DNA of 64,000 bases from Bradyrhizobium septentrionale (lineage in GTDB: Bacteria; Pseudomonadota; Alphaproteobacteria; Rhizobiales; Xanthobacteraceae): the NCBI RefSeq assembly GCF_011516645.4, contig NZ_CP088284.1:1-64000 (forward strand), given 5' to 3'. The notes beneath the pieces were generated by a model, which was given only the letters and a program-made list of their open reading frames with translations, ran no database searches and had not been told where the DNA came from. Every line of letters begins with the position of its first letter. Positions within the stretch are counted from its first letter, which is position 1. Shown here piece by piece: positions 25,735 to 50,382 of this stretch. The translations under genes and the position numbers were made by a program.

Positions 25735-25750
25735 TGTCGCGGTCGCAACA
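25735..25750. promoter_or_regulatory. NifA-type upstream activator site
   Basis: TGTCGCGGTCGCAACA is an exact TGT-N10-ACA. It lies about 94 bp upstream of a TGGCAC -24 element that precedes the peptide gene at 25909, the arrangement of NifA-activated promoters. Confidence 0.6.
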
Positions 25751-25834
25751 CGATCATTCAGAGTCTGCCACCACGCGCTCAGCCAAGTCACTGAACAAAA
25801 TGGAGAGCGGCTTTTGGAGTTCATCCTGTGCAAC

Positions 25835-25850
25835 TGGCACGAACATTGAA
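25835..25850 (+). promoter_or_regulatory. Sigma-54-like -24/-12 promoter, variant -12
   Basis: TGGCACGAACATTGAA: a consensus -24 (TGGCAC), five-base spacer and TTGAA in place of TTGCA/T. The GG and the spacing are right, but the -12 GC is GA. The same variant recurs before the peptide genes at 40262 and 50283. The predicted start is about 50 nt before the ATG. Confidence 0.5.
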
Positions 25851-25908
25851 GACGTCATTTCGTGACGGCAGCGGCCGCTGACCGTCCTCACGGAAAAGGA
25901 GTCAAGAA

Positions 25909-26070
25909 ATGAAAAGCGACATGTCCGACTATGATGTAACTGAACTGACTCTCGAAGAAGCATGTTCAACGTCGGGAGGCGACAAATGTATCATTTTTAA
26001 GCCGCCGCCGGGTGGCGGAACCATTGATGCCAATCCCCTGCCCCCCGCCGGGGATAGAGGGTTGATGTAA
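25909..26070 (+). CDS. Double-glycine leader peptide 1 (Pro/Gly-rich core)
   Basis: A 53-residue precursor with a 24-residue leader, MKSDMSDYDV then TELTLEEACSTSGG. It matches in length and pattern the leaders at 40262 and 50283. Cleavage after Gly-Gly by a C39 peptidase exporter would release 29 residues starting DKCIIFKPPPGGG and ending GDRGLM, with one Cys and many Pro/Gly. AAGGAG lies about 8 nt before the ATG. A NifA-type promoter lies upstream, a strong hairpin downstream, and an hlyD gene follows. The core resembles no bacteriocin I know; antimicrobial or signalling roles are guesses. Confidence 0.75.
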   Translation: MKSDMSDYDVTELTLEEACSTSGGDKCIIFKPPPGGGTIDANPLPPAGDRGLM

Positions 26071-26079
26071 ACTGACTAC

Positions 26080-26131
26080 AAGCCTGCCAGGGACGCGATC
26101 ATAACTCGCGTTCGCTGGCAGGCTTATTCTT
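26080..26131 (+). terminator. Hairpin terminator after peptide gene 1
   Basis: AAGCCTGCCAG (26080-26090) pairs perfectly with CTGGCAGGCTT (26115-26125), giving an 11-bp stem, with an inner cgcg/cgcg pairing. It is followed by attctta, a weak T-tract. It lies 10 nt after the stop. Confidence 0.65.
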
Positions 26132-26312
26132 ATGCCCTCGTAACATGAGAACTCCATCGGGAACAACCGTTCGGATGCGTCGTAGAGGCCAGATTCGCGC
26201 GAAGGCCGATCTTGCTCGCGACCTCAAGATGACTAATCTCGACCGGCGGCGGAGGCCGAAGCCCGCCAATCGGCATCGCTGACGGTGCTTACCATCTGGA
26301 AAGAGGGGAGCC

Positions 26313-26440
26313 ATGAAGCCTGAGATGTGGCTGAATTAACAGTTGAAGAAGCATCTGAACCTTCCGGAGGGAGTAGTTGTCGCAACTGCACTCGCGGCTA
26401 TGGCTGCGTGGCAGCTGTCATCCGCCGCACTTGCATCTGA
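26313..26440 (+). pseudogene. Double-glycine leader peptide 2 (Cys-rich, damaged leader)
   Basis: AELTVEEASEPSGG is the conserved end of the leader seen in the other three peptides. It is followed by a 22-residue core starting SSCRNCTRGYGC and ending RRTCI, with four Cys. The expected start (GAGGGGAGCC then ATGAAGCCTGAG at 26313) is out of frame with it, and about 13 bases of leader are missing. Translation could only start at GTG 26327, giving a 14-residue leader. No -24/-12 element was seen upstream. I read it as a damaged paralogue, though the core is intact. Confidence 0.55.
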
Positions 26441-26536
26441 AGCGAGTTAGATGCGCAACCGCCTGACGTCGCATGGTGCAGACTGGCAGTTTCGCTACCA
26501 AATTAACGATAGCAAACCTTGTGACATAATCGAACA

Positions 26537-27700
26537 ATGACCAATATCTTACTTCCTCCTGAAATTGTGAGCTACACGGCCGAAAGCATCCTCTCCCGGC
26601 AATCAGGACGATCTTTTCTCATTTACAAGATCATTGTGCTTTCTGTGGTCGCCGCATTGGTGGCGTTGCCACTCATTACCGTAACGGTCTCTGTTCAAAG
26701 CGCCGGCACCATTCGTCCCACCATCGAGAAGACTCCCCTGATCGCGCCCGTCTCAGGGCGCATTTCGCGTATCCTTGCCGTTGAGAACGATGTGGTTGCC
26801 CTGGGGCAAGAAATCCTCACCCTCGATGCCGTGGTGGTTGAGGAGAAGCTCAGAGCAGTTACAGGCGAAATTCGCGCCAAGGGCGATCTAGCCCGTGACC
26901 TTGAGACCCTAATCTCCTCCGGAACAGAAGCCAAGGACCCGATCCAGCTGCTGACCGAGTCCGCCACGGCCGAGCGGCTGCATTTTCTGAACCTGCTGCG
27001 GGAGAATGAATATGCCCGCAGTAACGCCGCGGCAGAACTCGAGCGCGCCAAGCGGCTGCTCTCCGTTGCTGCAGCGCCCGCAAAGGCGGTCGACGAACGG
27101 GCTTTCGCTCTCCAGAGCATTGAGGTCAAAGGCGAGATCCTCGCCCGGCGCAAAGCCGCCGAGTGGAACCAACAGCTCTTCGACACGAATTTGCGCTTGA
27201 AGGAACTCACTGCCAGCTTGCATCAGCTCGAGAACGAACGAGATCTGACCCGGATTCGAGCTCCCGTGTCCGGTGCTCTAGAGCAATTCTCCGGCCTCAC
27301 CCCTGGTGGCTACGTCCAGGCGGGGCAAACTGTCGCTCGCGTCTCGCCGGATGGCGAACTGGTGGCGGAGATCTACGTCTCCCCCAACGACATTGGCTTC
27401 GTGCGAACCGGCCAGTCAGTGCGGCTCCAGGTGGATGCCTTCAACTACAATCAATGGGGCGTTCTAGAGGCGACAGTGCTCAACGTGGCCCAGGACTTCA
27501 CCCTCCACGATAAAAGCCCGATCTTTAAGGTCCGCTGCGCGCTCTCTGCCAGTCATCTCACGCTCAAGAACGGAGTCATCGGTCAGTTGAAAAAAGGCAT
27601 GACCGTGCGAGCCCGCTTCCTCGTGGCCGACCGCAGCCTCCTTCAACTCTTCTACAATGAGGTCGACGATTGGCTCAATCCGCTCCTTGCAGGCGGTTAA
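26537..27700 (+). CDS. HlyD-family periplasmic adaptor of a peptide exporter, copy 1
   Basis: The membrane-fusion subunit that joins a C39 ABC exporter to the outer-membrane channel. It has one N-terminal membrane helix (about residues 30-50), a lipoyl-like half (IAPVSGRISRILAVENDVV), a long coiled-coil region (about 95-235) and the returning half (LTRIRAPVSGALEQFSGLTPGGYVQAGQTVARVSPDGELVAEIYVSPNDIGFV). At 387 residues it has the same length as the adaptor at 48799 and is clearly similar throughout. The gene is intact although its partner transporter 29 nt downstream is destroyed. It could serve the exporter encoded at 46612. Confidence 0.9.
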   Translation: MTNILLPPEIVSYTAESILSRQSGRSFLIYKIIVLSVVAALVALPLITVTVSVQSAGTIRPTIEKTPLIAPVSGRISRILAVENDVVALGQEILTLDAVVVEEKLRAVTGEIRAKGDLARDLETLISSGTEAKDPIQLLTESATAERLHFLNLLRENEYARSNAAAELERAKRLLSVAAAPAKAVDERAFALQSIEVKGEILARRKAAEWNQQLFDTNLRLKELTASLHQLENERDLTRIRAPVSGALEQFSGLTPGGYVQAGQTVARVSPDGELVAEIYVSPNDIGFVRTGQSVRLQVDAFNYNQWGVLEATVLNVAQDFTLHDKSPIFKVRCALSASHLTLKNGVIGQLKKGMTVRARFLVADRSLLQLFYNEVDDWLNPLLAGG

Positions 27701-27909
27701 TTCTTCCTCTTCAGAAACAGTGAGCGTCAATGTCGAGTAACGTCATCAAGTACAAACAGCGCGACGCCACGGATTGCGGAGCCGCCAGTCTTGCTTCCGT
27801 CGCAGCTTTCTATGGCTACAAGCTGCCATTGTCACGCATCCGCCAGTAGGCGTCGACCGGCCGCTCCGGCACCACGGTGTCGGGCCTCATGCAGGCGGCT
27901 CAACAGCTA

Positions 27910-29027
27910 GTACCTACTGTTCTTAAAGCGTGAGTCGTGATTCAAGGTCGGGATGATACCCGAAGCAAGAGAAGTCCACCTTTCGAGGAAAGATCGCAAG
28001 GTGCTTGAGGCGTGTTGCCGCTCCCCGGTGACGTTGCAGCGCGATTTGAAGCGGGCGCGGATAGTTCTGTTGGCGGCGGATGGACGCAGCACTCGGTCGA
28101 TCGCCAAGGAAGTTGGGGTCCAGCCGCGGATTGTCAGCCTTTGGCGGCATCGCTATGCCGACCAAGGCCTTGAAGGGCTGCAAGACAAGCCGCGACCGGG
28201 CAAGCAGCCAATCTATACGAAGGCCACCGACAAGCGGATTCTGAAGCTGCTGGACAAGCCGCCGCCGGACGGGTTCGCACGCTGGACCGGGCCCCTGCTG
28301 GCCGGGGCGCTGGGCGATGTTGACGTCCAATATGTCTGGCGGTTCCTGCGCAGCCACAAGATTGACCTCGCGGCTCGTAAGTCCTGGTGTGAGAGCAACG
28401 ACCCGAACTTTACGGCCAAAGCCGCCGATGTTGTCGGCCTCTATGTCGCCCCGCCCGCGAAGGCCATTGTGCTGTGCGTGGACGAGAAGCCCTCGATCCA
28501 GGCTTTGGAGCGAGCGCAGGGTTATCTGAAGTTGCCCAATGGCCGCGCCTTGACCGGCCAGAGCCACGATTACAAGCGGCATGGCACCACAACATTGTTT
28601 GCGGCGCTCGAAGTCGCCACCGGAAAGATCATCGCGGCGCATTCAAAACGCCGACGCCGCGTCGAGTTTCTCGACTTCATGAACAGCGTCACCGCGGCTT
28701 TTCCGAACCGGAAGCTTCACGTCATCCTCGACAACCTCAACACCCACAAGAAGAACGAGCATTGGCTCAAGGCCCACCCCAACGTGCAATTTCATTTCAC
28801 GCCGACAAGTGCGTCTTGGCTCAATCAGGTCGAGGTATGGTTTTCGATCTTGCAGGGGCAGTCGCTCAGCGGCACCTCCTTCACAAGCCTCACGCAGCTT
28901 CAGGAGCACATCGATGCCTACGTCAACGCATACAACGACAGAGCCGAGCCCTTCGTCTGGACCAAGAAAAAGGTCCGTCAACGCCGTTTCAAAGGCCGCC
29001 GTATCACTCAGCTCTGATTCTGGGTAC
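27910..29027 (+). mobile_element. IS630-family element, copy 1 (1118 bp)
   Basis: The ends are GTACCTACTG and the complement of CCCAGAATCA at GGTAC, inserted between duplicated TA dinucleotides (27908-27909 and 29028-29029) as IS630/Tc1-type elements do. Removing it and one TA restores the exporter codons (AAQQL-GFIAK). It appears identical to the copy at 44726-45843. Confidence 0.93.
27953..29017 (+). CDS. IS630-family transposase
   Basis: A 354-residue protein with an N-terminal helix-turn-helix (RSTRSIAKEVGVQPRIVSLWRHRYADQGLEGLQDKPR) and a DDE domain: Asp in LCVDEKPSIQALER, Asp in HVILDNLNTHK, Glu in WLNQVEVWFSIL. Complete. The same protein is encoded at 44769-45833. Confidence 0.95.
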   Translation: MIPEAREVHLSRKDRKVLEACCRSPVTLQRDLKRARIVLLAADGRSTRSIAKEVGVQPRIVSLWRHRYADQGLEGLQDKPRPGKQPIYTKATDKRILKLLDKPPPDGFARWTGPLLAGALGDVDVQYVWRFLRSHKIDLAARKSWCESNDPNFTAKAADVVGLYVAPPAKAIVLCVDEKPSIQALERAQGYLKLPNGRALTGQSHDYKRHGTTTLFAALEVATGKIIAAHSKRRRRVEFLDFMNSVTAAFPNRKLHVILDNLNTHKKNEHWLKAHPNVQFHFTPTSASWLNQVEVWFSILQGQSLSGTSFTSLTQLQEHIDAYVNAYNDRAEPFVWTKKKVRQRRFKGRRITQL

Positions 29028-29289
29028 TAGGCTTCATCGCCAAAGGGGTGAAGGGTGGGTTCGACAGCCTTTACAAGATTCCCAAGCCCGCCATCGCGCA
29101 TTTAGTCGTTAAGGAGGTCCTACACCACTTCGTCGTCATACAGGCGATCGACCGCCGGTCGATCATCGTCATGGACCCGGCCTATGGCGAAATCCGCAAG
29201 TTGTCGGTAAGCGCTCCTTTCTACGCACCTATGCAGTTGAGCGCGGGGATGGGATGAGGTGTCCACCATGAGCGAGGTGGACACGATCG

Positions 29290-29736
29290 ATGATCACTCC
29301 AGAAGAACCTTTGAGACTTGAGACGGTCGGCGTGTTGCGCAATGGCCGGCGTCGCTATGATCCGGCCAGCAAACAGCGGCTGGTCGAGGCCTGTCTGCAG
29401 TCTGGCGTGTCGCTGGCGGGGCTTGCGCTGCAACACGGCGTGAACGCGAACCTGCTGCGCAAGTGGGTGGCCAAGCGACAACTTCAGAACGGGGATGGCC
29501 AGCCGGAGGCGCGGGCGCCGATTGCGCCAGCCTTTATTCCGGTTCGCGCGCCGTCGCCGTCGCCAACTCGATCTGCTGGCGCGATTGCGGTCTGCGCGAC
29601 GGAGCGATCCTGTGCAGGGCGGCTGACGGCATCGATGCCCAACGGCGTGACGCTTTCGCTGGAAGGCGGCGACGCGCAGTTGCTGTCGGCGGTGATTGAA
29701 GCGCTGGGGCGTTGCGATGTTCCGACTGGCGTCTGA
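29290..29736 (+). CDS. tnpA: IS66 accessory protein TnpA, copy 2
   Basis: Same 148-residue helix-turn-helix protein as the gene at 24110-24556. A single nucleotide difference was noticed across tnpA/tnpB, near 29640. The reading frame is intact and is followed by tnpB with overlap. Confidence 0.92.
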   Translation: MITPEEPLRLETVGVLRNGRRRYDPASKQRLVEACLQSGVSLAGLALQHGVNANLLRKWVAKRQLQNGDGQPEARAPIAPAFIPVRAPSPSPTRSAGAIAVCATERSCAGRLTASMPNGVTLSLEGGDAQLLSAVIEALGRCDVPTGV

Positions 29737-30070
29737 TCTTCGGGTCTACCTTCACCGCGAACCGATTGACTTCCGGGCGGGCATCAACAGCCTGGCGATC
29801 GTGGTCGAGCAGTCGATGGGGCTGGATCCGTTCCAGCGCGCGGTGTTCGCGTTCTGCAATCGTCGCCGCGACCGGATCAAGCTGCTGATTTATGATCGGT
29901 CAGGATTTTGGATGCTGCTGAAGCGGCTGGAGGCCGACAGATTCCACTGGCCCCGAAGTCAGGAGGCGGTGCTGACGCTGACGACGGAGGAGCTGCACTG
30001 GCTGCTTGACGGCATCAACATCGCGGCGGTGCGTCGTCATCCGGTGCGGCAATATCAGAGCGTGGGCTGA
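29717..30070 (+). CDS. tnpB: IS66 accessory protein TnpB, copy 2
   Basis: Same protein as the gene at 23776-24129 (MFRLASDLRVYLHREPIDFRAG). Intact. The downstream tnpC is broken, so this copy of the element could move only with TnpC supplied in trans by copy 1. Confidence 0.92.
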   Translation: MFRLASDLRVYLHREPIDFRAGINSLAIVVEQSMGLDPFQRAVFAFCNRRRDRIKLLIYDRSGFWMLLKRLEADRFHWPRSQEAVLTLTTEELHWLLDGINIAAVRRHPVRQYQSVG

Positions 30071-30310
30071 GCGTGTTCGATGCGGGCGGCGTCATCGGGC
30101 TTCGGCATGGCCGTTCTCAGATGACGCGGCCGAAGACATGACGAAGACATGGGAGCCCGGTTGACGCGGCGGCATGACTTCGATTCAAGACTCCGATGAG
30201 TCGCAAGCCCACGACGCACGAACTGGAAGCCTTGATCGCGGCGCACGCGGCCGAGATCGCGGCGCTGAAGGCCGAAAACGAGAAACTCGCACAACGCGTG
30301 CTGCATCTAG

Positions 30311-31754
30311 GAGCCCGTCCAGATATGTTTTCGTGACGGGCATTTGTTGTAGAGTAGCAGGCTCAGGCTGCGTTTGCGAGGTTGAACAGCTTGAGGAGGT
30401 TATGGACGGTGCAGATCATTGTCCACTCGGCGCGCACTTTCTCGATGCCCCGCAACAGGAACTGGCGGAAGCCTCTTGCCTGTTTGATCTGCCCGAACAC
30501 CGGCTCCACCACTTGCTTTCGCAATCGGTAGGGTGTTTCGAAGCCGCCATCGTCGATCTTCTTTCGCATGGCCTGTGTCAGCGGGCCGCCGACTTTTCCG
30601 TTCGCTACTGTCGGGTGCTTGGCGCGTCCGGGCGCGACATAGCCATCGATGCTGCGTGTGTCGAGCGCTTCGAGATTGGCTTCGCTGCAGTAGCCGGAAT
30701 CCGCTGAGGCCTGCCGCGGCTTGCGGCCAAGATTGCTCTCGATGGCCTCGATCAGGGGCACCAACTGGCCCTGATCGCTGCCGTGCTGGGTCAGTTCTTG
30801 CGCGACAATGATCTGGGCATGTGCATCGACGGCCGCCTGGGCATTATAGGCCTGAACGAAGCCATCCTTCGACTTCATGATGCGGCTTTCCGGATCGGTG
30901 AAGTTGCGTTGCGCCTTGGGATTGGGTTCCTCCGATGGCAGCGCCGCCGGTTTGCCCGGCTTCTTGCGGCCTTCGGCCTGGCGCTGCTGTTCCTTTTCGG
31001 CCTCGATGCGGCGCTCTTCCTCCGCCGCCAGTTTGGCGTCCGCTTCCAGCGCCGCCATCGCTTGCTGGATCTTCGCCAGCCGTTTCTGCTTGTCGACGGT
31101 CCAGTCCGGCAGTTCGTCGCTGTTGCCGAAAGTCTCATCCTCCGAGGCATCCGCCGCCTCGGCGGCCGCCAGCATGCGAGCGACCTCGGCCTTCAATTCC
31201 GCCTCGCGCTTCTTCATGCGCTCATAACTCATCGCCTTGTGTTTCGACGCGTTCGCCTTGATCTTCGTACCATCCAGCGCGACATGACCGAGCTTGACCA
31301 GCCCGGCCGTCTCGCACAACTTCAGAACCTGCACGAATAGCGCGCCGAGCGCCTTCAAATGTCGCTTGCGAAAGTCGCTGATCGTCCGAAAATCCGGCGC
31401 ATCCAGCGCCACGATCATCACAAAATCGTTCCGCTCCCGGCAGGCCTTGGCAATCCGACGCGACGAATACAGCCCACTCGCATAGCTATGCAGCAGCAGC
31501 GCCACCATCATCCGCGGATCAAACGGCGGCTGCCCAAGCCCGCTCACATAGCTGCCCATGATCTCCCTGAGATCGAGGCTCTCCCGCACCAGATCAACCA
31601 TAAACCGCGAGACATGGCCTTTCGGCACGAAGTCCTGCACATTCGGCGGCAGAAGCAGCGTCTGATCGATGTTCCAAGGCCGAAAATACTTGCTCATCGC
31701 CCAATGTTGAATCAGACCCGACCAGATTTGAACAGCGACTATCCAGACAAGCTC
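30311..31754 (-). mobile_element. IS1182-family element (1444 bp)
   Basis: Imperfect inverted ends GAGCCCGTCCAGAT and GAGCTTGTCTGGAT, flanked by ctag at 30307-30310 and 31755-31758. The undisturbed IS66 copy has a single ctag at this site, which proves the insertion point. One transposase gene fills it. Confidence 0.93.
30363..31697 (-). CDS. IS1182-family transposase
   Basis: 444 residues. N-terminal DUF772-type region (RPWNIDQTLLLPPNVQDFVPKGHVSRFMVDLV, then PPFDPRMMVALLLHSYASGLYSSRRI), a DDE domain with Asp in VALDGTKIKANAS and Asp in ASADSGYCSEANL, and the C-terminal YRLRKQVVEPVFGQIKQARGFRQFLLRG with the Glu. A long charged, coiled-coil-like insert lies around residues 165-260. The gene appears intact. 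Confidence 0.95.
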   Translation of the reverse strand: MSKYFRPWNIDQTLLLPPNVQDFVPKGHVSRFMVDLVRESLDLREIMGSYVSGLGQPPFDPRMMVALLLHSYASGLYSSRRIAKACRERNDFVMIVALDAPDFRTISDFRKRHLKALGALFVQVLKLCETAGLVKLGHVALDGTKIKANASKHKAMSYERMKKREAELKAEVARMLAAAEAADASEDETFGNSDELPDWTVDKQKRLAKIQQAMAALEADAKLAAEEERRIEAEKEQQRQAEGRKKPGKPAALPSEEPNPKAQRNFTDPESRIMKSKDGFVQAYNAQAAVDAHAQIIVAQELTQHGSDQGQLVPLIEAIESNLGRKPRQASADSGYCSEANLEALDTRSIDGYVAPGRAKHPTVANGKVGGPLTQAMRKKIDDGGFETPYRLRKQVVEPVFGQIKQARGFRQFLLRGIEKVRAEWTMICTVHNLLKLFNLANAA

Positions 31755-33917
31755 CTAGAGGAGCAGTTGCGCCTGGAGCGCCTGCACCGGTATGCGCCGA
31801 AGAGCGAAAAGCTCAAGGAGCGCATCTTCAACGAAGCCGAGCAGGCCGCCGCTGAAAGCCGGGACGACGACGATGTCGAGGCGGTCGCCGTGCCGGACAC
31901 GGGGTTGCCGGAGGCTCCAAAGCCGGCGCCGAAGGCACGCGGCCGCAAGCCGCTGCCTGACGATCTGCCGCGCCAACGCGTCGAACACGATCTGGGTGAG
32001 GATCAAAAGGACTGTCCGTGCTGCCATAATCGGATGCATCGGATGGGCGAGACCGTCACCGAGCAGTTGCACGTCGAGGTCAAGGCGTCGGTGCTGCAAC
32101 ATGTGCGGTTCAAATATGCCTGCCGTCACTGCGAGCGCACCGCGCTGAACACCCCGATTGTGACCGCGCCGATGCCGGCGCAGCCGCTGCCGGGTAGCGT
32201 CGCCACGCCATCGACGCTGGCGCTGGTGCTCGCCAACAAATACGTCGACGGCACGCCGCTGTACCGTGTGGCGGACGCGCTGGGGCGCGCCGACGTCAGC
32301 ATCAGCCGCGGGACGCTGGGCAACTGGGTGATCCGGGCGAGCGAGTTGCATCTGCATCGGGTCTATGACGCGCTACAGCAAAAGCTCATGTCGCAGCCCC
32401 TGGTCCACGGCGACGAAACCTGGGTCCAGGTTCTTAAAGAGGACGGCCGTGATGCGCAGGCCAAATCCTTCATGTGGGCCTATCGCAGCGGCCAGGGCTG
32501 CGCGCAGCCGGTCGTGCTGTTCGATTACCAGCCCGGTCGCGGCCAGCAACATCCTCAGGCCTTCCTGGCCGGCTATCGCGGCTTGTTGATGAGCGACGGC
32601 TATGACGCCTGGCGCACGCTGACAGGCGCGACCCATCTCGGCTGTATGGCGCATGCGCGCAGGAAATTTACCGATGCGCTCAAGGCCAGGACAAAGCCTG
32701 GCGGTCCGCCATTGCAGGCGCTCAAGTTCTTCGAGGCGTTGTACGAGGTCGAGAGGGTGGCGCGCCAGACGCCGCCCGACGGCGAAACGCGCGCCGCATA
32801 CACCTTGCGGCTGCGCCAGCAGCATAGCCTGCCGGTATTGGCCGCCTTCCGGACCTGGCTCGACGACCAGGCGCCGAAGGTGCTACCCGAAAGCTTGACC
32901 GGCAAGGCGATCGCCTATGCACGCAACCAATGGGATTATCTGACCCGTTACACCAGTGACGGTCTCGCCCCGATCGATAACAATGTTCTGGAGCGCGACA
33001 TCAGGCCGTTTTGCACCGGACGAAAAAGTTGGCTGTTCAGCGACACCGTTGCCGGCGCCAAGGCAAGCGCCGTGATCTACAGTTTGGTGCTGACATGCCG
33101 GGCATGCGGCGTCGATCCCTATGCATGGCTACGTCACGCGCTCACCGAATTGCCCCAACGCGCGCCAGACGCCGATATCGAAGATCTGTTGCCGTTCAAT
33201 TGCACCGCTCAAAAAAACCTGCCAGCTGACAACGACAGCGGCTGACCGTCAAACGCTCAGGATCAATCAAGCCGTTCCGATGATCCCGCTGGGCCCCGGC
33301 GCCACGCGACGCCGCGGCCAGCCGCGCGCGCAGCCTGTGCAGTAAAATGCGCGCTTACGCTTGATCCTCGGCTATTACAATCACGTCCTGAGCCTGCCTC
33401 AGAAGTTTTTCGACAGCATGCGTATAGGTGAAATCGTCTCCCGTATGAACGACGCAATGAAGATCAGAAGCTTCCTGAACGAAGTCTCGATCACCATGGT
33501 GGTTAACGTGCTCGTGATACTGTTCTCGTTCGGGCTGATGTTCGTCTACTCGTGGAAGATCGCCTTGGTCGTGGCGACCTCTATCCCACTATACTTATTG
33601 GCCTATTGGACCATCAATTGGCTGAATAGGAAGCGCCAGCGCACCATTATGGAAAATGCCGCCGATCTGGAAGCGCAATTAGTTGAATCACTAGGAGCGG
33701 TCTCCACGATCAAGACATTCGGTATAGAGAGCCTGGCCAATCTTAAGATGGAGACCCGCTTCATCAAGATGCTACACTCCGTCTATAGCGCCGGCCTTAT
33801 CTCGGTCTTCGGAGACAATTGCATATTTCAGTGATGGTGAGCAGCGATTTCGCGCGATCATGAGCGGCGAATTCAGACGATCGTGAGCAGCCCGCTCCGG
33901 CCGAGGCGGTGATAGAG

Positions 33918-34679
33918 TCAGCGTTCTGGCTGCTCGTCAAGGGTGATGGTTCTGGCGTTGCGTTTTCGCATGCTTTCGCCGGCAAGCTGGAGGCGGTGAG
34001 CGTTATGGACGAGGCGATCGAGGACAGCGTCGGCGTAGGTTGGGTCTCCGATAACTTCGTGCCATGTGTCCACAGGGAGTTGGCTGGTTACGATGGTGGA
34101 GGCGCGGCCATGGCGGTCCTCAAGGACTTCCAGTAGATCGCGCCGTTCGGCAGCGGTGAGCACTGACAATCCCCAATCGTCCAAAATCAGAAGCTGGGCG
34201 CGGCCAAGGGTTTTGAGCAAGCGGGCATAACGTCCATCCCCCCGCGCGAGTGCCAACGCTTCGAACAATCTTGGGACGCGATGATAGAGAACCGAGCGAT
34301 TGTCGCGGCAGGCCTTGTGGCCGAGGGCACAGGCTAACCAACTTTTGCCCAATCCGGTCGCTCCGGTTATGAGCAAATTCTCGTGGCGATCGATCCAGTC
34401 GCCGCTGACCAGCTTGGCGAAGACGGCCCGGTCGATACCCCGCGGCGTGCGCAAATCGACGTCCTCCAAGCAAGCATTCTGGCGGAGCGCGGCCAGCTTG
34501 AGGCGCGTAGTGAGCCGCCTGGTGTCGCGTTCCGCGGCTTCCCGGTCGACCAGCAGGCCGATGCGATCTTCGAACGGCAAGGCTTCGAGATCAGGTGATC
34601 GTCGCTGCTCCTCGAAGGCCTTGGCCATGCCGCTCAAGCCGAGCTCGATCAGGCGTTCGTGGGTGGGATGGGTGAGCAT
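33918..34679 (-). CDS. istB: IstB helper ATPase, IS21 element no. 2
   Basis: A 253-residue AAA+ ATPase for target selection. Start MLTHPTHERLIELGLSGMAKAFEEQ, Walker A GATGLGKSW, Walker B LLILDDWGLSVL, then TSQLPVDTWHEVIGDPTYADAVLDRLVHNAHR. Intact, 16 nt after istA. It is a different subfamily from the istB at 7970. Confidence 0.95.
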   Translation of the reverse strand: MLTHPTHERLIELGLSGMAKAFEEQRRSPDLEALPFEDRIGLLVDREAAERDTRRLTTRLKLAALRQNACLEDVDLRTPRGIDRAVFAKLVSGDWIDRHENLLITGATGLGKSWLACALGHKACRDNRSVLYHRVPRLFEALALARGDGRYARLLKTLGRAQLLILDDWGLSVLTAAERRDLLEVLEDRHGRASTIVTSQLPVDTWHEVIGDPTYADAVLDRLVHNAHRLQLAGESMRKRNARTITLDEQPER

Positions 34680-34695
34680 ACAGGTCTCCTTGGCT

Positions 34696-36237
34696 TCAGT
34701 GGAAATAATCCCGGCCGCGGATGTTGCCGTGGCGCAGGGGTTGGGGTTCGGAGGGCTCGTCGAGAAAGGTGCGATCCAGGCCGTTCTGGAGGATGGAGCG
34801 GATCGAGGCGACGGATCGCGCCTTGATCAGAATGCCGCGCCGGCAGGCCGCGTCGACGCGCTCGGCGCTGTAGCTTTTGGCCAGCGACAGAATGCCGAGG
34901 CAGGTGCGAAAGCCTTGCTCGGGATGCGGCCGGGCCGCGATCACGGCCTGGAAGAAGGCGGCGGTCGACGGACCGATCCGCTCGCCGGCGGCGATCACTC
35001 CGGCGGGCGTCCATTGGCCGTAGCGCCGATGGGCGCTGGGCATGTGGTCGGCGGTGGTGGTGTGGCCCCGCCGGTTGGGCGCGCGGGCGTGGCTGGCGAT
35101 CCTGCGGCCGTTGTGGAAGATCTCGACCGTCCTGTCGTCGATGCGGGCATCGACAAGCTCACGGATGAGCCGATATGGCGTGGAATACCAGTGTCCATCG
35201 ATCTCGATATGATAGTCGGGGCCGACCCGGCATCGCTTCCAGCGCGCGAAAGCGTAAGCCTGATCCGGCAGCTTTGTGAGCTTGGGCTTGTCGAGTTCGG
35301 AGAACAGTTCGGCGCGGCTGGCGCCAAAGTCGCGCATCTGCCGGGCATTGAGTTCGACGACGAGTATTTTGATGGCTGCGTTCAGCTCCGCCAACGAAAA
35401 GAAGCGTTGGTTGCGCAGCCGCGCCAAAATCCATCTCTGGGCGACTTGCACCGCAACTTCGACCTTTGCCTTATCTTTTGGGCGCCGCGGCCGGGCTGCG
35501 AGAATGGCCGTGCCGTAATGGCTCGCCATCTCGGCATAGGTTCGGTTGAGGCCAGGATCGTGGCGGTCGGGATTGGTGACGGCGGCCTTGAGATTGTCGC
35601 AGACCACGAATGTCGGCGCGCCGCCGAGGAAGGCGAAAAGGTTGATGTGGACCCGGATCCAGTCGGCGAGCCCCTCGCTTGGGCAGGCCTCGGCGTAGGT
35701 ATAGTTGGAGGCGCCCATCGCTGCGACGAACAGCTTCATCGACTGCACTTCCCCACTTGAGGGGGCGATGACGTCGATGGTGTCGCCGGCGAAATCCACG
35801 AAAACCTTCTCGCCGCCCAGATGGGTCTGCCGCATCGAAGGCCGGGCTCGCCCCTTCCAGGCCTCGTAGGTCGTGCAGAACCATGTGTAGCCGAATCCAT
35901 CGGGATGGCTGGCGCGATACTCGTCCCACAGCAGCCGGCGGGTCACGTTGCGCCGGCGCAGCTCCTTGTCGACATAGCCCCAGTCGGGAACGGGCCGCTG
36001 TGGGCTCTGTGACGCAGGCCTCGGCGCAGGGAAAAGCAGCAGCTCCAGGTCTTCGTCGGTCATTCCGACCGGCAACGGCCAGTTCAGTCCGGCAGCCCCG
36101 GCTCGGCGCAGATAGCTGTGCACGGCTCCGTTGCTGATGCCCAGGGTGCGCGCGATGGCTCGCTCCGGCAAGCCTTGAACATGTTTTAAGCGGAGAACCT
36201 CTTTGATCCGGCGCATCGACAATCTCTGGGTGGGCAT
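34696..36237 (-). CDS. istA: IstA transposase, IS21 element no. 2
   Basis: A 513-residue transposase. It has an N-terminal helix-turn-helix (GLPERAIARTLGISNGAVHSYLRRAGAAGL) and an integrase core with Asp in VFVDFAGDTIDV, Asp in FVVCDNLKAAVTNPDRHD and KAKVEVAVQVAQRWIL carrying the Glu. The C-terminal domain is present. Intact, so the element may still be active. Confidence 0.95.
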   Translation of the reverse strand: MPTQRLSMRRIKEVLRLKHVQGLPERAIARTLGISNGAVHSYLRRAGAAGLNWPLPVGMTDEDLELLLFPAPRPASQSPQRPVPDWGYVDKELRRRNVTRRLLWDEYRASHPDGFGYTWFCTTYEAWKGRARPSMRQTHLGGEKVFVDFAGDTIDVIAPSSGEVQSMKLFVAAMGASNYTYAEACPSEGLADWIRVHINLFAFLGGAPTFVVCDNLKAAVTNPDRHDPGLNRTYAEMASHYGTAILAARPRRPKDKAKVEVAVQVAQRWILARLRNQRFFSLAELNAAIKILVVELNARQMRDFGASRAELFSELDKPKLTKLPDQAYAFARWKRCRVGPDYHIEIDGHWYSTPYRLIRELVDARIDDRTVEIFHNGRRIASHARAPNRRGHTTTADHMPSAHRRYGQWTPAGVIAAGERIGPSTAAFFQAVIAARPHPEQGFRTCLGILSLAKSYSAERVDAACRRGILIKARSVASIRSILQNGLDRTFLDEPSEPQPLRHGNIRGRDYFH

Positions 36238-36982
36238 CGGCCTTCCTCGTTCACTGACGAGGCAGTTCCTAAGCCGGTTGAGTTGTCGGCCGAAGCGGGC
36301 TGAGCCGCTGAAAAGCTGCTCACGATCCCGCGAAATCCGTGCTCACGATCGTCTGAAATCTCTGCTCACGATCCCCTGAAATCCGTGCTCACGATCCCGC
36401 GAAACATGCAGACAATGCCTCAACCCTCCTCTCAAACCTATTCACCGTCGTGCTGATGTGGTTCGGTACGACGCTTGTCCTCGATCAGAGCGTCACGCCC
36501 GGCGAACTACTGTCCTGCTATACGCTGCTTGGCTATATTACCCGGCCGGTTGCCAGCCTGATCCAAACCAATCGGATCGCTCAGGATGCGTTTATCGCCG
36601 CGGATCGCCTGTTCGAGATCTTCGACCTGGAGCCGGCAAGCGGTGGCAGCATCGATGCCACCAAGTCCGAACTTGGCGATATCTGCCTGGAGAACGTCAC
36701 GTTTCGCCATGGCGCGCAGCCTGAGCTTTTCCAGCATCTCAGCATCACCTTCCGCCGAGGCGAGATGACGGCCGTGGTGGGGAAAAGCGGCTCAGGCAAG
36801 AGCTCCCTTGCAGCGCTGGTGCAGAATCTCTATCCGCTTGAGCGTGGATGTATCCGGATCGGCCCGCATGACCTCCAGGACCTCTCGACTGAATCCCTGC
36901 GTAAAGTTGTCGCTGCGGTACTGAGCTGGCTCCGGTTGTCTGAACAGATTTTCCGCGTCGATAAGTGGAGCCTCTGCCATGG

Positions 36983-40089: not shown

Positions 40090-40105
40090 TGTCGCGTCCG
40101 TGACA
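40090..40105. promoter_or_regulatory. NifA-type upstream activator site
   Basis: TGTCGCGTCCGTGACA is an exact TGT-N10-ACA, centred about 96 bp before the -24 GG at 40193-40194. Its spacing matches the site before peptide 1. Confidence 0.6.
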
Positions 40106-40191: not shown

Positions 40192-40207
40192 TGGCACGAT
40201 TCTTGAT
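40192..40207 (+). promoter_or_regulatory. Sigma-54-like -24/-12 promoter, variant -12
   Basis: TGGCACGATTCTTGAT: consensus -24, five-base spacer, TTGAT at -12. A 20-bp stretch covering this element is identical to that upstream of peptide 4 on the other strand (50367-50386). Confidence 0.55.
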
Positions 40208-40261: not shown

Positions 40262-40423
40262 ATGAAGGCCGATATCTCAGCCTTGGGTCTAACTGAACTA
40301 ACTCCTGAGGAAGCATCTGCTACTTCGGGAGGCGTGCTTTGGGGGGTTGTGTTTGCAATTGTCGGCGTTGTTGGGATGGCAGCCGCCGCAATAGGTGGAT
40401 ATATAGGGGGCGGTCCACGTTGA
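40262..40423 (+). CDS. Double-glycine leader peptide 3 (hydrophobic, Gly-rich core)
   Basis: 53 residues. Leader MKADISALGL then TELTPEEASATSGG (24 residues). The 29-residue core starts VLWGVVFAIVGVVG and ends YIGGGPR, with Gly and Ala spaced through a hydrophobic stretch as in helical class II bacteriocins. GGAAAGGA lies 8-14 nt before the ATG. It is preceded by the NifA-type promoter pair and followed at once by an hlyD scrap, so its own exporter is gone and it would depend on the cassette at 46612-49962. Membrane activity is inferred from composition only. Confidence 0.75.
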   Translation: MKADISALGLTELTPEEASATSGGVLWGVVFAIVGVVGMAAAAIGGYIGGGPR

Positions 40424-41822: not shown

Positions 41823-41835
41823 CCGAATAGAATCC

Positions 41836-42231: not shown

Positions 42232-42240
42232 CGGCGACGG

Positions 42241-43370: not shown

Positions 43371-43458
43371 CTTCGCTCCTGATTCGCAGCAAGAATCCTC
43401 GCCGCTGTCAGGCAGAAAATCCACTCAAGCTACTGTCCGAATTTGCGGAGCCAGCTCT

Positions 43459-43938: not shown

Positions 43939-44011
43939 TGGCCCGACCAAGCACATTTTGCCCCGGTTCTCTTGCCTTTTCAGCTCACTGATTCACTTCG
44001 CCGCAGCGCTT

Positions 44012-44700: not shown

Positions 44701-44725
44701 ATGGAAGGTTCTAGTTCCAGAACTA

Positions 44726-45843: not shown

Positions 45844-45906
45844 TAGGCGCAGACATAGAAGCTCACATCGGCTCACAAACTCAGCAGCCGATAGCCGATC
45901 GCTTAC

Positions 45907-46611
45907 CACTCCGCCAGACGGGGTTTCTTTGCCGCTTACGAGCTGCGGGGCGACCAGTTCAGAATGCCCGCCATGGAGCCGCTAGATCGAAGGAAGATAT
46001 TTTCGGCTGCCGAAACTTCGCAACGGTTGATCGGCGCGACCTACAACATCCGCTGAAACAGGAGCTGGGAATGGACAAGGTCGTGCATTACGTAGTCAGC
46101 CGACTTCCGGTGATCGGCGCCGACCCGGCGGTGATCAACTACAATCGGATTGATCGCCTTCGTTTCGCCCCTCAGGCGGGCGCATGACGCATCCTGAGGA
46201 TATTCGCGACCTGCTCTTACGGTTCACAGGCCCCGACGCTAACGCAGACGCTTGCGCGAATCGAGAGCGCGATGCGCGGGGTGGAGGCGAAGGATTGCGA
46301 AAGCTTTTTCGAAGGCGTGGGAGGAAGCCTTGGCCGCGGCCGCCGAGATGAAGCGCCTGGCCGGGTAGATCAATGGACCATCCATGGCTCGGCATCCTGC
46401 TTTGCCTTCCGCACATCCTCGAACCGGGCGACTGGGTCGAATATCGCTCGGCGCCGGCAATACTGGGCGCGATTTCGACCTGGAGACCAACCTGCCGGTC
46501 GCCGAGCTCAAAAATTCATTCGATGGCAGGGCGGCGCGGAGTCGATCCGTGAGATCCCGTGTTCAAGGATTAGCTGCTGACGTTGCTGCCGCCAGGGTAA
46601 TCCACGAGCGC
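45907..46611. other. 705 bp without a recognisable gene
   Basis: Small frames occur, such as MDKVVHYVVSRLPVIGADPAVINYN from 46072, coupled by an ATGA to a frame starting MTHPEDIRDLLLRF at about 46183. Near 46290-46370 a frame reads IAKAFSKAWEEALAAAAEMKRLAG. None matches a family I know and frames shift between them, so this looks like decayed coding sequence beside the exporter cassette. Confidence 0.4.
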
Positions 46612-48768
46612 TTAACTGAATCCGGTCTGCGCCCGCCACAAGCGAGCGTAAGCGCCTTCAGCCGTCAGCAGATCAGCATGCCTTCCCTCCGCAACAACAC
46701 GTCCCTTATCCAACACGACGATCTTATCGGCTCCGCAAATCGTGTTGAGTCGATGAGAGATAACCACGATGATCTTGCCGGCCAGACGCAGTTCCTCAAT
46801 CGCCCGTATGACAAATGCCTCGGCGACGGAGTCGAGAGAGGCGGTCGCCTCGTCGAGGATTAAGACCTCTGGATCGCGGTACAAAGCTCGAGCCAACGCT
46901 AGGCGCTGCTTCTCTCCGCCCGAAGGGCGTACGCCGTTCTCGCCCAGATAGGCCTGGTAGCCACCTGGCCAGCGCTCGATCACGTCACGCAGACCGATTT
47001 GTTCGCAGATGTGCACTATCTTCCCGGTGTTCGGTTCGAACTCGCCAAGCGCGATGTTCTCGATGACTGAGGCCGAGAACACGTCCACGGATTGCGGTAC
47101 CGCGGCAACAATCTTGCGCAGGGATTCAGCCGAGAGGTCTTGGAGGTTATAGGAGCCGATGCGGATGCGTCCACCCTCAAGCGGGTACACATTTTGCAGC
47201 AAGGCAGCAAGCGAACTCTTGCCCGAGCCGCTTTCTCCGACCACAGCCGTGATCTCCCCTCGCCGGAAGCTGACGCTGAAATCCTTGAAAAGCTCCGGCT
47301 GGGCGCCATGGCGGAACGTGACGTTCTCCAGATGAATATCGCCAACGTCCGACGTGGTGGCATTAATGCCGCCGCTGCCTGCTGGATCAAGGTCGAATAT
47401 CTCGAACAGGCGATCCGCCGCGATAATGGCATCCTGAACAATCCTGTTGGCGTGAATTAGGCTTGTAACCGGGCCGGTGATATGGCCGAGCAGCGCATAG
47501 CAGGACAGTAACTCGCCGGGTGTAATGGTCTGATCGAGGGCGAGCGTTGCACCGAACCACATCAGCACGATGGTAAAAAGGGTCGAGAGGAAGATCGATG
47601 CATTGTCTCCGACGATTGAGATGAGGCCGGACCTGTAGATGGAGTGCAGGGTCTTAACAAAGCGAGTCTCAAACTTCAGGCCGGCATAGCTCTCTATTCC
47701 GAAAGCTCTGATCGTGGAGATGGCTCCGAGTGATTCTACCACCTGCGCCTCCAGATCTGCCGCATTCTCCATAATTGCGCGCTCGCGCTTGCTATTCAGC
47801 CGGTTCATGGTCCAATAAACTAAGAGGTATACTGGGACGGAGCCCGCCACTACCAAAGCGATTTTCCATGAGTAGACGAACATCAGCCCAAAGGAGAACA
47901 GGATCACCAGCACATCAACAAATAAGGTGATCGAGACGTCGTTCAGAAAGCTTCGGATCTTGACCGCGTCGTTCATGCGGGAGATGATTTCTCCTGTACG
48001 CATGCCATCAAAAAACTTCTGGGGCAGGCTTAGGACGTGATTGTAGTAGCCTAGGATCAAGTGGAGATCGATCTTTTGCCCCGTTTGCAGGACGAGCCGG
48101 TTTCGCAGGAAATTGATCAGGGTCTGCGGCACAAGGATCAGCAGCATCACGACGCTCATGAGATTGAGCAAATTGCGGTTTCCTGCTGTGATAACATGAT
48201 CGACAATCTTTTGGATGTAGATGGTCGTCGAGAGGCCGAGGAGGGTCGTTATCAGTGCGCCGACGAGGGCCTGCGTTAGTGCGGCTTGGTGGGGCGCAAC
48301 CAGTCGGGCAAAGCGGAGAAGGGGGGAGGTGGTCTCGTCGCGGCGCTTGAAGTTGTCTGCCGGGACCATGAGCAACAGGACACCAGTCCATTGCGTCTTG
48401 AATTCCTCGTGAGACAGCTTGCGGATCTCTCCATACGCTGGGTCCATGATGGTGACCCACCTCCGGTCGATCGCTTGAACGACTACGAAGTGGTGCAGGA
48501 CCTCCTTTACCACCACATGCGCGATGGCGGGCTTGGGAATCTTGTGCAAGCTGTCGAAGCCACCTTTGACGCCCTTCGCAATGAAACCGAGCTTTTGAGC
48601 CGCTTGGAGGAGACCCGACACGCTGGTCCCGGAGCGGTCGGCCGAGGCAAACTGACGGATCAGCGACAGTGGCAACTTGCAGCCATAGAAGGCGCCCACG
48701 GAAGCAAGACTAGCAACCCCGCAATCCGTGATGTCGCGCTGCTTGAACTTGGGGATTCGACTCGACAT
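46612..48768 (-). CDS. C39-peptidase ABC exporter (bacteriocin-type), intact
   Basis: A 718-residue exporter that would cut double-glycine leaders and pump the peptides across the inner membrane. Peptidase C39 domain: Cys16 (RDITDCGVAS), His93 (VLHHFVVVQ) and Asp109 (IMDPAYG), all present. A six-helix membrane domain follows (about 155-440). The ATPase has Walker A GESGSGKSS near 509, signature PSGGEKQRLALARAL near 614 and Walker B VLILDEATASLD near 636. It lies 30 nt after the HlyD adaptor gene and downstream of peptide 4. It is the only whole exporter of this type in the window, so the peptides at 25909 and 40262 probably depend on it. Confidence 0.95.
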   Translation of the reverse strand: MSSRIPKFKQRDITDCGVASLASVGAFYGCKLPLSLIRQFASADRSGTSVSGLLQAAQKLGFIAKGVKGGFDSLHKIPKPAIAHVVVKEVLHHFVVVQAIDRRWVTIMDPAYGEIRKLSHEEFKTQWTGVLLLMVPADNFKRRDETTSPLLRFARLVAPHQAALTQALVGALITTLLGLSTTIYIQKIVDHVITAGNRNLLNLMSVVMLLILVPQTLINFLRNRLVLQTGQKIDLHLILGYYNHVLSLPQKFFDGMRTGEIISRMNDAVKIRSFLNDVSITLFVDVLVILFSFGLMFVYSWKIALVVAGSVPVYLLVYWTMNRLNSKRERAIMENAADLEAQVVESLGAISTIRAFGIESYAGLKFETRFVKTLHSIYRSGLISIVGDNASIFLSTLFTIVLMWFGATLALDQTITPGELLSCYALLGHITGPVTSLIHANRIVQDAIIAADRLFEIFDLDPAGSGGINATTSDVGDIHLENVTFRHGAQPELFKDFSVSFRRGEITAVVGESGSGKSSLAALLQNVYPLEGGRIRIGSYNLQDLSAESLRKIVAAVPQSVDVFSASVIENIALGEFEPNTGKIVHICEQIGLRDVIERWPGGYQAYLGENGVRPSGGEKQRLALARALYRDPEVLILDEATASLDSVAEAFVIRAIEELRLAGKIIVVISHRLNTICGADKIVVLDKGRVVAEGRHADLLTAEGAYARLWRAQTGFS

Positions 48769-48798
48769 GGCGGCCCACTGGCCCCTTAGAAAATTTAA

Positions 48799-49962
48799 CT
48801 AACGAGGTGACAGGAGCGGGTTAAGCCAATCATCGATCTCGTTGTAGAGTAGTTGCAGGAGTGTGCGCTTCGCCACGAGAAAGCGGCCGCGCACGGTCAT
48901 GCCCTTCTTCAAATGACCGATTATCCCGTTTGTGAGCTCAAGATAATTTCGGGAGAGCGCGCAGCGGACCTTGAACACAGGGTTCTTGTCACGCAGGGTG
49001 AAGTCCTGCGCCACGTCTAGCACTGTCGCGTCGATCATACCCCATTGATTGTAGTTGAAAGCATCGACCTGGAGCCGCACCGGCTGGCCCGGCCTTACGA
49101 AACCGATGTCTTTGGACGAAACGTAGATTTCTGCCACCAGTTCGCGGTCGGGCGAGATCCAGCCGACAGTTTGCCCCGCCTGGACGTAGCTTCCGGGCAT
49201 AAGGCCGGCGAATTGCTCGATAGCCCCTGACACGGGGGCACGGATGATAGTCAGATCACGTTCGTTCTCAAGCTGATGCAAGTTGGCTGTTAGTTCTCTC
49301 AGGCGCAGATTAGTGTCGAAGAGCTGCTGGTTCCATTCGGCGGATTTGCTCCGGGCGAGGATCTCGCCTCTCGCCTCAAGGCTCTGGAGAGCGAAAGCCT
49401 TTTCCTCAATTGACTTCGCGGGCGCGGCAGCAACCGAGACGAGACGCTGAGCACGTTCGAGTTCTGCGGCGGCATTCCTGCGGGCATATCGGTTCTCCCG
49501 CAACAAGTTGAGAAAATGCAGCCACTCGGCCCTGGCGGACTCGGTCCGCAGGGGGATGGGCGCGTCCGCCTGCGCACCGAAAGAGATCATGGTCTGAAGA
49601 TCAGTGGTGCGATCGTTCTTCGCACGAATTTCGCCAGAGAGCACACTGATCTTCTCTTGAATGCCCTTATCGTCAAGGGCGAGGATTTCTCCGCCTTCTG
49701 CAACAATATCGTTCTCAACTGCGAGTACACGTGAGATGCGCCCGGAGGTGGGCGCGATCACAGGAGTCTTCTCGACGGTAGGACGAATCGCACCAGCACT
49801 TTGAACTGACAGCGTGACGGTTATGACTGGCAGCGACAGCAACGCCGCAGCGACCGAAGACACGATGATCTTATAGATCGCCAAAGATCGTCCTGTTTCT
49901 CGCGACAGGATGCTCTCTGCAGTGAAGTTGATCATTTCAGGAGGGAGCAGGATATTGGTCAT
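48799..49962 (-). CDS. HlyD-family periplasmic adaptor, copy 2
   Basis: 387 residues, the same length as the adaptor at 26537. N-terminal membrane helix (about 29-50), lipoyl-like half (VIAPTSGRISRVLAVENDIV), coiled-coil arms (about 95-235) and the returning beta half (IRAPVSGAIEQFAGLMPGSYVQAGQTVGWISPDRELVAEIYVSSKDIGFV). It would link the ABC exporter to an outer-membrane TolC-like channel, which is not in the window. The order peptide, adaptor, exporter on one strand with short gaps indicates one operon. Confidence 0.93.
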   Translation of the reverse strand: MTNILLPPEMINFTAESILSRETGRSLAIYKIIVSSVAAALLSLPVITVTLSVQSAGAIRPTVEKTPVIAPTSGRISRVLAVENDIVAEGGEILALDDKGIQEKISVLSGEIRAKNDRTTDLQTMISFGAQADAPIPLRTESARAEWLHFLNLLRENRYARRNAAAELERAQRLVSVAAAPAKSIEEKAFALQSLEARGEILARSKSAEWNQQLFDTNLRLRELTANLHQLENERDLTIIRAPVSGAIEQFAGLMPGSYVQAGQTVGWISPDRELVAEIYVSSKDIGFVRPGQPVRLQVDAFNYNQWGMIDATVLDVAQDFTLRDKNPVFKVRCALSRNYLELTNGIIGHLKKGMTVRGRFLVAKRTLLQLLYNEIDDWLNPLLSPR

Positions 49963-50094
49963 TGCAGACGTATATTCCTATCGACGATTGGCTGCCTCCA
50001 TTGAAACTCTGATCGAGTGGGGCTGGTCGCTGCTTAAGTGGTGCACCGACCAGCGCCGCGCTCTGATTGCGGTGATAAGGCTTTGGCCATCTCA

Positions 50095-50283
50095 TTAAGG
50101 ATGGCGACCACCGCGCCCGCGAATCATTCCAACTCCAATTATTGCACCGACCACCACTGTCGCAACGTTAACCACTGTTTGAACGACCCTATCGAAGACC
50201 TTCCAGAACGAGCCTCCCAAAGTTGCCGCTGCTTCTTCTGGGGATAATTCGGTTACGCCGTAGGCTAGCAGGTCGATTTTCAT
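50095..50283 (-). CDS. Double-glycine leader peptide 4, first gene of the exporter operon
   Basis: 62 residues. Leader MKIDLLAYGV then TELSPEEAAATLGG, again 24 residues, followed by a 38-residue core starting SFWKVFDRVVQTVVN, with a hydrophobic GAIIGVGM stretch and a basic tail RGRGGRHP. Starting at 50283 gives the same leader length as peptides 1 and 3, with GGAAA upstream; an in-frame ATG at 50301 would add MEKRAT. A helical, membrane-active bacteriocin-like peptide is the simplest reading, but activity is untested. hlyD follows 132 nt downstream. Confidence 0.8.
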   Translation of the reverse strand: MKIDLLAYGVTELSPEEAAATLGGSFWKVFDRVVQTVVNVATVVVGAIIGVGMIRGRGGRHP

Positions 50284-50366
50284 CGTTGCTCGTTTTTCCA
50301 TGATTGCTTCTTTCTGTTGTCGATAAACGATGCGCGTCAGCGCCGCCGACTCGCAAGCAGATGGAC

Positions 50367-50382
50367 ATCAAGAATCGTGCCA
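50367..50382 (-). promoter_or_regulatory. Sigma-54-like promoter of the peptide 4/exporter operon
   Basis: Reading the minus strand: TGGCACGATTCTTGAT, the same 16 bases as before peptide 3. It points towards peptide 4 (-12 about 66-84 nt before the alternative starts). The exact NifA-type site at 50561-50576 lies about 190 bp upstream; only a TGT half-site is at the closer position (50449). Confidence 0.55.

Follow-up and report, generated by a model that had tools for sequence, protein, structure and literature searches.

A double-glycine peptide export system of rhizobia with predicted control by NifA and sigma-54

We analysed a 64,000-nucleotide stretch of Bradyrhizobium septentrionale DNA (contig NZ_CP088284.1, positions 1 to 64,000, called the window below) and found in it three short peptide precursors with one common double-glycine (GG) leader, an exporter of the peptidase C39/ATP-binding cassette (ABC) type with its HlyD-family adaptor, and promoter elements of the kind used by NifA and sigma-54 polymerase. 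The same leader accompanies the same HlyD protein in five rhizobial genera, and these recurrent associations make it very likely that the parts belong to a NifA/sigma-54-controlled peptide export system. The fuller reading, in which this NifA-controlled, microcin-like export is directed against bacterial targets, is more tentative, and we give it a probability of about 0.45. Peptide export systems of this type are already known; what is new is the variant spread over several rhizobial genera.

Precursors and exporter genes of the window

Translation of the frames starting at 25909(+), 40262(+) and 50283(-) gave three precursors, A, B and C, with a common 24-residue GG leader and cores unrelated to one another, as the original prediction had described them. 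Precursor A (25909..26070, plus strand, stop included) reads MKSDMSDYDVTELTLEEACSTSGG followed by DKCII..., its core being 29 residues long, rich in Pro and Gly and containing one Cys. Precursor B (40262..40423, plus strand) reads MKADISALGLTELTPEEASATSGG followed by VLWGV..., with a 29-residue hydrophobic Gly/Ala/Val core, and has no exporter directly adjoining it. Precursor C (50095..50283, minus strand) reads MKIDLLAYGVTELSPEEAAATLGG followed by SFWKV..., with a 38-residue hydrophobic and cationic core; its annotated start (50301) lies six codons upstream of 50283. The three scored 62-66 bits on our leader profile, a circular result in that all three are among its 13 seeds. The fourth peptide of the prediction, at 26313, did not hold up as an open frame. 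Its ATG frame reads MKPEMWLN and ends after eight codons, and the leader-like DVAELTVEEASEPSGG lies in a different frame with a TGA immediately upstream; the genome-wide leader-profile search returned the place as a match with two TGA codons inside. We take this element (26313..26440, plus strand) to be a decayed copy, a GTG-started gene being less likely.

The genes had also been thought too short for ordinary gene calling, which proved wrong for two of them: precursors A and C are annotated as hypothetical proteins (WP_166217173.1 and WP_166217193.1) in the related plasmid pBs162S2a. This plasmid belongs to the soybean-nodule strain B. septentrionale 162S2 and is 100% identical to the window over 46500-51000. 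Precursor B is absent from the stretch of pBs162S2a that was compared; its leader was found at 100% in 10 plasmid records, with no gene listed under it in a gene table that is itself incomplete. The genome from which the window comes has four contigs and 10.4 Mb, the window lying on contig C1 (457 kb) and the nifH and nodA matches on contig C2. C2 also carries two more copies of the leader, at 5171023-5171139(-) and 4492283-4492380(-) (L142 and L144), which are decayed by stops or a frame break. Both have TGGCACGACTCTTGA upstream, the same promoter as the window precursors.

Two gene clusters accompany the precursors. Cluster B reads on one strand from precursor C through the HlyD-family membrane fusion protein (48799..49962, minus strand), which falls in the rhizobial clade of the HlyD tree, to an intact C39/ABC exporter (46612..48768, minus strand; Pfam PF03412, PF00664 and PF00005). 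The C39, ABC membrane and ATPase domains that define a C39 exporter are all present, and the Cys, His and Asp expected for the C39 active site, which we take to be the catalytic residues, align with those of the bacteriocin exporter structure 4RY2. The exporter is a close relative of the peptide cleavage/export ABC transporters of TIGR01193 and falls below their cut-off (490.4 bits, E 1e-146, against 523.85); NHLP-type bacteriocin export, TIGR03796, was rejected at 453.5 bits against a cut-off of 853.3. In cluster A the order is precursor A, the decayed copy, an intact HlyD open reading frame (ORF) of 387 amino acids (26537..27700, plus strand; Pfam HlyD_3), 75% identical to its cluster B counterpart, and then the remains of a C39/ABC exporter (27730..36923, plus strand). 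These remains are four matched pieces among insertion sequence (IS) elements, corresponding to exporter residues 1-60, 59-119, 189-390 and 387-558, two of them with stops. The cluster A exporter gene is broken by IS elements, yet its HlyD and precursor A are intact. The simplest reading is that the intact cluster B exporter serves all three precursors.

Spread among rhizobial genera

With a profile built from nine HlyD proteins we searched bacterial and archaeal genomes, one for each species, and used the best 80 of 350 loci. Two short conserved words seeded the search; relatives with neither of them would have been missed. Among these 80, 41 rhizobial loci stood at 51% identity or more, and the other 39 at 40% or less, mostly from Bacteroidota with a few deltaproteobacterial bins. 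At least one leader, that is, a GG-leader substrate encoded beside the transport genes, was present in 39 of the 41 rhizobial loci; the two leaderless loci (L065 and L066) are cut off by contig ends, beginning 288 bases before HlyD. The same leader occurred with the same HlyD, and with the C39 exporter where this was examined, in Bradyrhizobium, Mesorhizobium, Sinorhizobium, Rhizobium and Microvirga. In a midpoint-rooted HlyD tree of 48 rows, chosen to thin near-copies, the 27 rhizobial rows formed one side of a 100/100 branch with the five genera intermixed. In a plasmid collection, every record with this HlyD at E 1e-60 (75/75) and every record with a match to precursor B (28/28) came from those five genera; a looser DNA search also matched seven Leisingera, two Agrobacterium, one Phocaeicola and one Bacteroides records.

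For the leaders themselves we examined 52 loci, namely the window and L049-L099, which gave 84 matches of at least 24 bits and none of even 20 bits in reversed sequences. This control rules out a chance origin of the leader. Removing identical combinations of leader and core left 57 precursors, two of which, below 36 bits, were dropped from the leader and promoter-site tallies and from core classing. Some redundancy is built into the set: precursors A and C recur in L050, a single genome supplies the three copies L059-L061, and L054 and L072 are one locus. Leader matches can be numerous within one locus or genome: four and five lie upstream of one exporter in B. neotropicale (L067) and B. centrolobii (L068), and the Bradyrhizobium genomes G057 and G109 hold 10 and 9. 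The most divergent member, that of B. aeschynomenes (L099), has an HlyD at 51% identity and a core rich in Gly, His and Pro.

The leader is conserved and the cores are not. Positions Gly-1, Gly-2, Glu-8, Leu-12, Val-15 and Tyr-17 are nearly fixed, each in 42-45 of 46 distinct leaders. After two further precursors with cores shorter than 15 residues had been set aside, the remaining 53 cores comprised 36 that are hydrophobic and helix-like, mostly of about 30 residues and often in tandem pairs, 12 that are Cys- or Pro-rich, and 5 others. Across 12 related pairs we counted 19 nonsynonymous and 23 synonymous codon changes in the leader against 65 and 16 in the core (Fisher p 2e-4, the pairs partly overlapping), and the nonsynonymous rate (dN) exceeded the synonymous rate (dS) in the core in 7 of the 12. 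By this contrast the leader has the character of a translated sequence under constraint, and the core appears either relaxed or diversifying.

Predicted promoters

Upstream of all three window precursors we found TGGCAC-N5-TTGA, as had been predicted. The -24/-12 element TGGCACGAACATTGA (25835..25849, plus strand) lies 74 bases before the start codon of precursor A, TGGCACGATTCTTGA (40192..40206, plus strand) 70 bases before that of precursor B, and TGGCACGATTCTTGA again (50368..50382, minus strand, read from 50382) 99 bases before the start of precursor C at 50283. Two exact TGT-N10-ACA sites of the NifA type, likewise predicted, precede the first two: TGTCGCGGTCGCAACA (25735..25750, plus strand) stands 100 bases before the -24 element of precursor A, and TGTCGCGTCCGTGACA (40090..40105, plus strand) 102 bases before that of precursor B. 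Of the features expected in a NifA-sigma-54 regulon, the window precursors thus show the -24/-12 element in three of three cases and a TGT-N10-ACA site some 90-120 bases upstream in two of three. Exact TGGCAC-N5-TTG occurs four times in the window, at the three peptide promoters and once facing a nonribosomal peptide synthetase (NRPS) gene. Looser or single motifs are less discriminating: when up to one mismatch is tolerated, the -24/-12 pattern occurs 25 times in the window, against 16 expected by chance, and TGT-N10-ACA alone occurs 11 times against 5.9. Since both motifs are common, the window by itself proves little, and it is the comparison across species that bears the weight.

In that comparison a -24/-12 element mismatched at no more than one position preceded 47 of the 57 distinct precursors within 330 bases, against 5 of 57 in the reversed control and 38 of 1040 random stretches, true sites possibly being among the latter. 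For some second peptides of tandem pairs, only the promoter of the first peptide is in range. Among 39 promoters whose element lies 50-170 bases from the start, 26 carried an exact TGT-N10-ACA 60-140 bases above the -24 element, where 500 simple shuffles averaged 0.44 and never gave more than 4; related loci in this count are not independent. At the nifH promoter of the same genome, TGT-N10-ACA sites precede the -24 element by 88 and 117 bases, a layout like that of the peptide promoters. At -12, 33 of the 39 peptide promoters have TTGA where the standard is TTGC. The part of PMC3538637 used here prints the M. loti nifH promoter with this TTGA variant (TTGGCACGAGTTTTGAA) and gives R. etli nifH likewise an A at -12; it also describes how expression from lacZ fusions is lost in a nifA2 mutant, both for nifH and for further genes that have promoters of this kind. 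Altogether there is good sequence evidence, short of proof, that the peptide promoters are under NifA control. The original prediction of a NifA-regulated set of exported peptides is borne out to this extent, with leader and HlyD together in five genera and both promoter motifs recurring at NifA spacing.

Association with nitrogen fixation and nodulation genes

Background gene frequencies were measured within Bradyrhizobium alone. Among its 265 genomes, 16 had the exporter HlyD, 23 leader peptides, 139 nodA and 160 nifH. Leader peptides were present in 16 of the 16 exporter-positive genomes and in 7 of the 249 others; the original prediction had staked itself on leader and exporter recurring together elsewhere, and they do. 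The exporter-positive genomes had nifH in 16 of 16 cases and nodA in 15 of 16, the only one lacking nodA being B. aeschynomenes (genome G042, the L099 locus), in which nifH is present. That species reportedly nodulates without Nod factors. Leader-positive genomes had nifH in 23 of 23 cases, against 137 of 242 others (p 5e-6), and nodA in 22 of 23 (p 4e-6), neither value being corrected for phylogeny. In seven genomes (G001, G076, G110, G118, G119, G169 and G237) we observed leader peptides without a matching HlyD, and each of the seven matched both nifH and nodA. On contigs that hold both exporter and nodA, the distance between the two is 27-65 kb in five genomes and 1.4-7.9 Mb in three. Over all genera, the 41 rhizobial HlyD loci come from 39 genomes, of which 30 had nifH, 35 had nifA over the cut-off and all 39 had one or both, nifH being present in each of the four without nifA over the cut-off. 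On p42d, the symbiotic plasmid of R. etli CFN42, a nifX-associated gene and nolL come next after the peptide operon.

Relation to known peptide systems

Class II microcins of the MccV type have a GG leader and leave the cell through the C39 exporter CvaB with the membrane fusion protein CvaA and TolC. The rhizobial system resembles them in its short GG-leader precursors, C39 ABC exporter, HlyD-type adaptor and hydrophobic Gly/Ala-rich cores. It differs in its leader family, in its NifA-type control, in having several unrelated cores per genome and in being known here from sequence alone, and also in that no immunity gene was found beside the operon in 35 loci chosen to thin near-copies. To class IIb bacteriocins (lactobin A/cerein 7B, TIGR03949) it is linked by a Sinorhizobium fredii relative that bears that name (WP_082912367.1), by tandem hydrophobic peptides and by a small-xxx-small motif, admittedly a loose one, in 36 of 36 hydrophobic cores. 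The Gram-negative exporter and again the failure to find an immunity gene at the 35 loci set it apart from them.

RaxX of Xanthomonas is reportedly a GG-leader peptide relevant to the plant host. The RaxABC system, as described in the part of PMC4216712 used here, resembles the rhizobial one in exporting a GG-leader peptide through a C39 exporter and a membrane fusion protein; unlike it, the rhizobial loci showed no conserved sulfotransferase-like gene, and they have dissimilar cores, belong to legume symbionts and carry a NifA-type promoter. With the NifA-RpoN regulons of M. loti R7A and R. etli the system shares the -24/-12 type including TTGA, the upstream site being printed there as TGT-N10-AGA (PMC3538637, in the part used); a difference is that neither a GG-peptide operon nor a C39 exporter operon appears in Table 1 of that paper.

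The GG-peptide systems of Bacteroidota and Desulfobacterota (L100-L138) have HlyD proteins of 33-40% identity and, at several loci, leaders of similar shape such as KNLNLESFGVQELTQKEMNEIDGG. Their HlyD proteins fall outside the rhizobial clade, and their best leader score is 22.7, against 59-69 for the rhizobial seeds. The presence of such similar-shaped but much lower-scoring leaders beside Bacteroidota HlyD suggests that a single entry into rhizobia may have been followed by spread of the system among them, the direction being presumed.

Neighbouring genes

A TGT-N10-ACA site at 50561..50576 (plus strand) lies between precursor C and an NRPS ORF (50852-57457, plus strand) that runs divergently from it. 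A perfect -24/-12 element, TGGCACGTCGGTTGC (TGGCACG-N4-TTGC; 50649..50663, plus strand), faces the NRPS ORF, and the TGT-N10-ACA site stands 88 bases upstream of it. In B. barranii the same -24/-12 element precedes the same NRPS, with the nearest TGT-N10-ACA sites found about 1,000 bases off. The NRPS may belong to the same nitrogen-fixation regulon as the peptides. Elsewhere in the window we observed conjugation (type IV secretion) genes at 12525-22027, with VirB/TrbE, TrbL, VirB8, CagX, TrbI and coupling-protein domains, and a group II intron reverse transcriptase/maturase at 6640-7890, shortly past an NRPS gene.

Discussion

If our reading is correct, then NifA would bind TGT-N10-ACA under the oxygen-poor conditions of the nodule and activate sigma-54 polymerase at the -24/-12 element. 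The precursor would be made, and the C39 domain of the exporter, going by what is known of its family, would bind the conserved leader and cut after Gly-Gly. The ABC/HlyD pair, presumably with a TolC-like channel of the host bacterium, would export the core. The released cores would be membrane-active and would act mainly on competing bacteria in or around nodules.

Several results weigh against this reading or parts of it. The TGT-N10-ACA site nearest the promoter of precursor C lies 194 bases from its -24 element, beyond the usual range, and an exact site is absent from 13 of the 39 promoters. In 9 of the 39 genomes nifH was not found, namely in eight Rhizobium contig assemblies and Mesorhizobium carmichaelinearum; nifA was above the cut-off in all nine. 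In bean rhizobia nifH is repeated, and we suspect that in the eight Rhizobium assemblies the gene sits on contigs too short for inclusion. Core dN was not above dS in 5 of the 12 pairs, and the two family copies on the organism's own chromosome are decayed. The bacteriocin family TIGR03949 was rejected for the window precursors: precursor B scored 10.1 bits against a cut-off of 21.5, precursor A matched no family, and TIGR03949 is not among the five families listed for precursor C. No conserved immunity-like gene was found among ORFs with relatives in at least three genera at the 35 loci, a survey that could miss a short or lineage-specific gene, and the gap between the last peptide and HlyD is below 300 bases in 21 of the 27 loci measured. 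Nodule bacteria, moreover, are often clonal. NifA control implies expression among just such bacteria, and an antibacterial use is therefore not obvious.

The same survey found no conserved modifying-enzyme gene beside the operon. Outside the transporter, the conserved ORFs were precursors, split transporter pieces, transposase-like genes and short peptide or promoter frames. Some short frames over promoter DNA are conserved in at least three genera (for example L070 1618-1776, at 6 loci); we took these as a by-product of conserved promoter DNA, a small gene being possible.

Because the set of parts is microcin-like and yet no immunity gene was found, we place antibacterial use first and a plant-directed use not far behind. 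The latter, itself less likely than not, would keep the same NifA control and export and have the cores act on the host, at the symbiosome membrane or a plant receptor. It fits the way in which presence tracks nifH and nodulation genes, the expression expected inside symbiosomes, leaders that are kept while cores vary, and the failure to find an immunity gene at the 35 loci. There is a precedent in Xanthomonas RaxABC, a C39/membrane fusion protein exporter of a plant-relevant peptide (PMC4216712, in the part used). Against it stand the lack of a conserved sulfotransferase-like gene at the 35 loci and the 36 of 53 cores that look like single hydrophobic helices, resembling known membrane-active bacteriocins. 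Furthermore, the exporter is present in 15 of 139 nodA-positive Bradyrhizobium genomes, and it cannot therefore be a general requirement. Slightly less probable again is a bolder form of the idea, in which diversifying, leader-cleaved peptides, membrane-active and disulfide- or proline-rich, released under NifA would act on the plant cell or its membrane in the symbiosome, as a bacterial counterpart to the antimicrobial-like, nodule-specific peptides of the plant.

If instead the exported cores were pheromones passing between bacteroids and coordinating differentiation or nitrogen fixation, this would accord with the secretion of signals by C39 exporters. HetC of Nostoc is a C39-type exporter on which heterocyst differentiation depends in that nitrogen-fixing organism (PMC10986499, in the part used). 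A signalling role is improbable given that no conserved receptor or kinase gene was found beside the operon at the 35 loci and that strongly different cores of several kinds coexist in one genome. A further alternative keeps the export of the peptides and has their promoters respond to a sigma-54 activator other than NifA, or not depend on sigma-54 at all. The promoters without an exact TGT-N10-ACA site and the prevalence of TTGA over TTGC would allow this; the match of site and spacing to nifH of the same genome, the M. loti nifH-type TTGA element (PMC3538637, in the part used) and the presence of nifA or nifH over the cut-off in 39 of 39 genomes make it less probable still. Least probable of all is that the family is decaying mobile cargo without present use. 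The broken copy at 26313, the two chromosomal leaders, the cluster A exporter split by IS elements and the IS-dense surroundings point that way, and they are outweighed by the 39 of 41 rhizobial loci that retain a leader with HlyD, by leader positions conserved across genera and by promoters that have been retained.

Judging by titles and the openings of abstracts, we found no paper on NifA-controlled GG peptides of rhizobia; some of the genes may be listed in the account of the R. etli NifA-RpoN regulon (AEM 2010) or in a Gram-negative GG-peptide screen (Dirix et al. 2004). Returning to NifA-controlled export as such, it is probable that in many legume-nodulating bacteria the onset of nitrogen fixation also turns on the release of diverse peptides within the nodule. 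If this is true, nodule bacteria of several families release strain-specific peptides exactly when they fix nitrogen, which would bear both on the exclusion of strains from nodules and on the action of the symbiont on the host cell. Since one member sits on p42d, the model symbiotic plasmid of R. etli CFN42, both questions could be tested with existing genetics.

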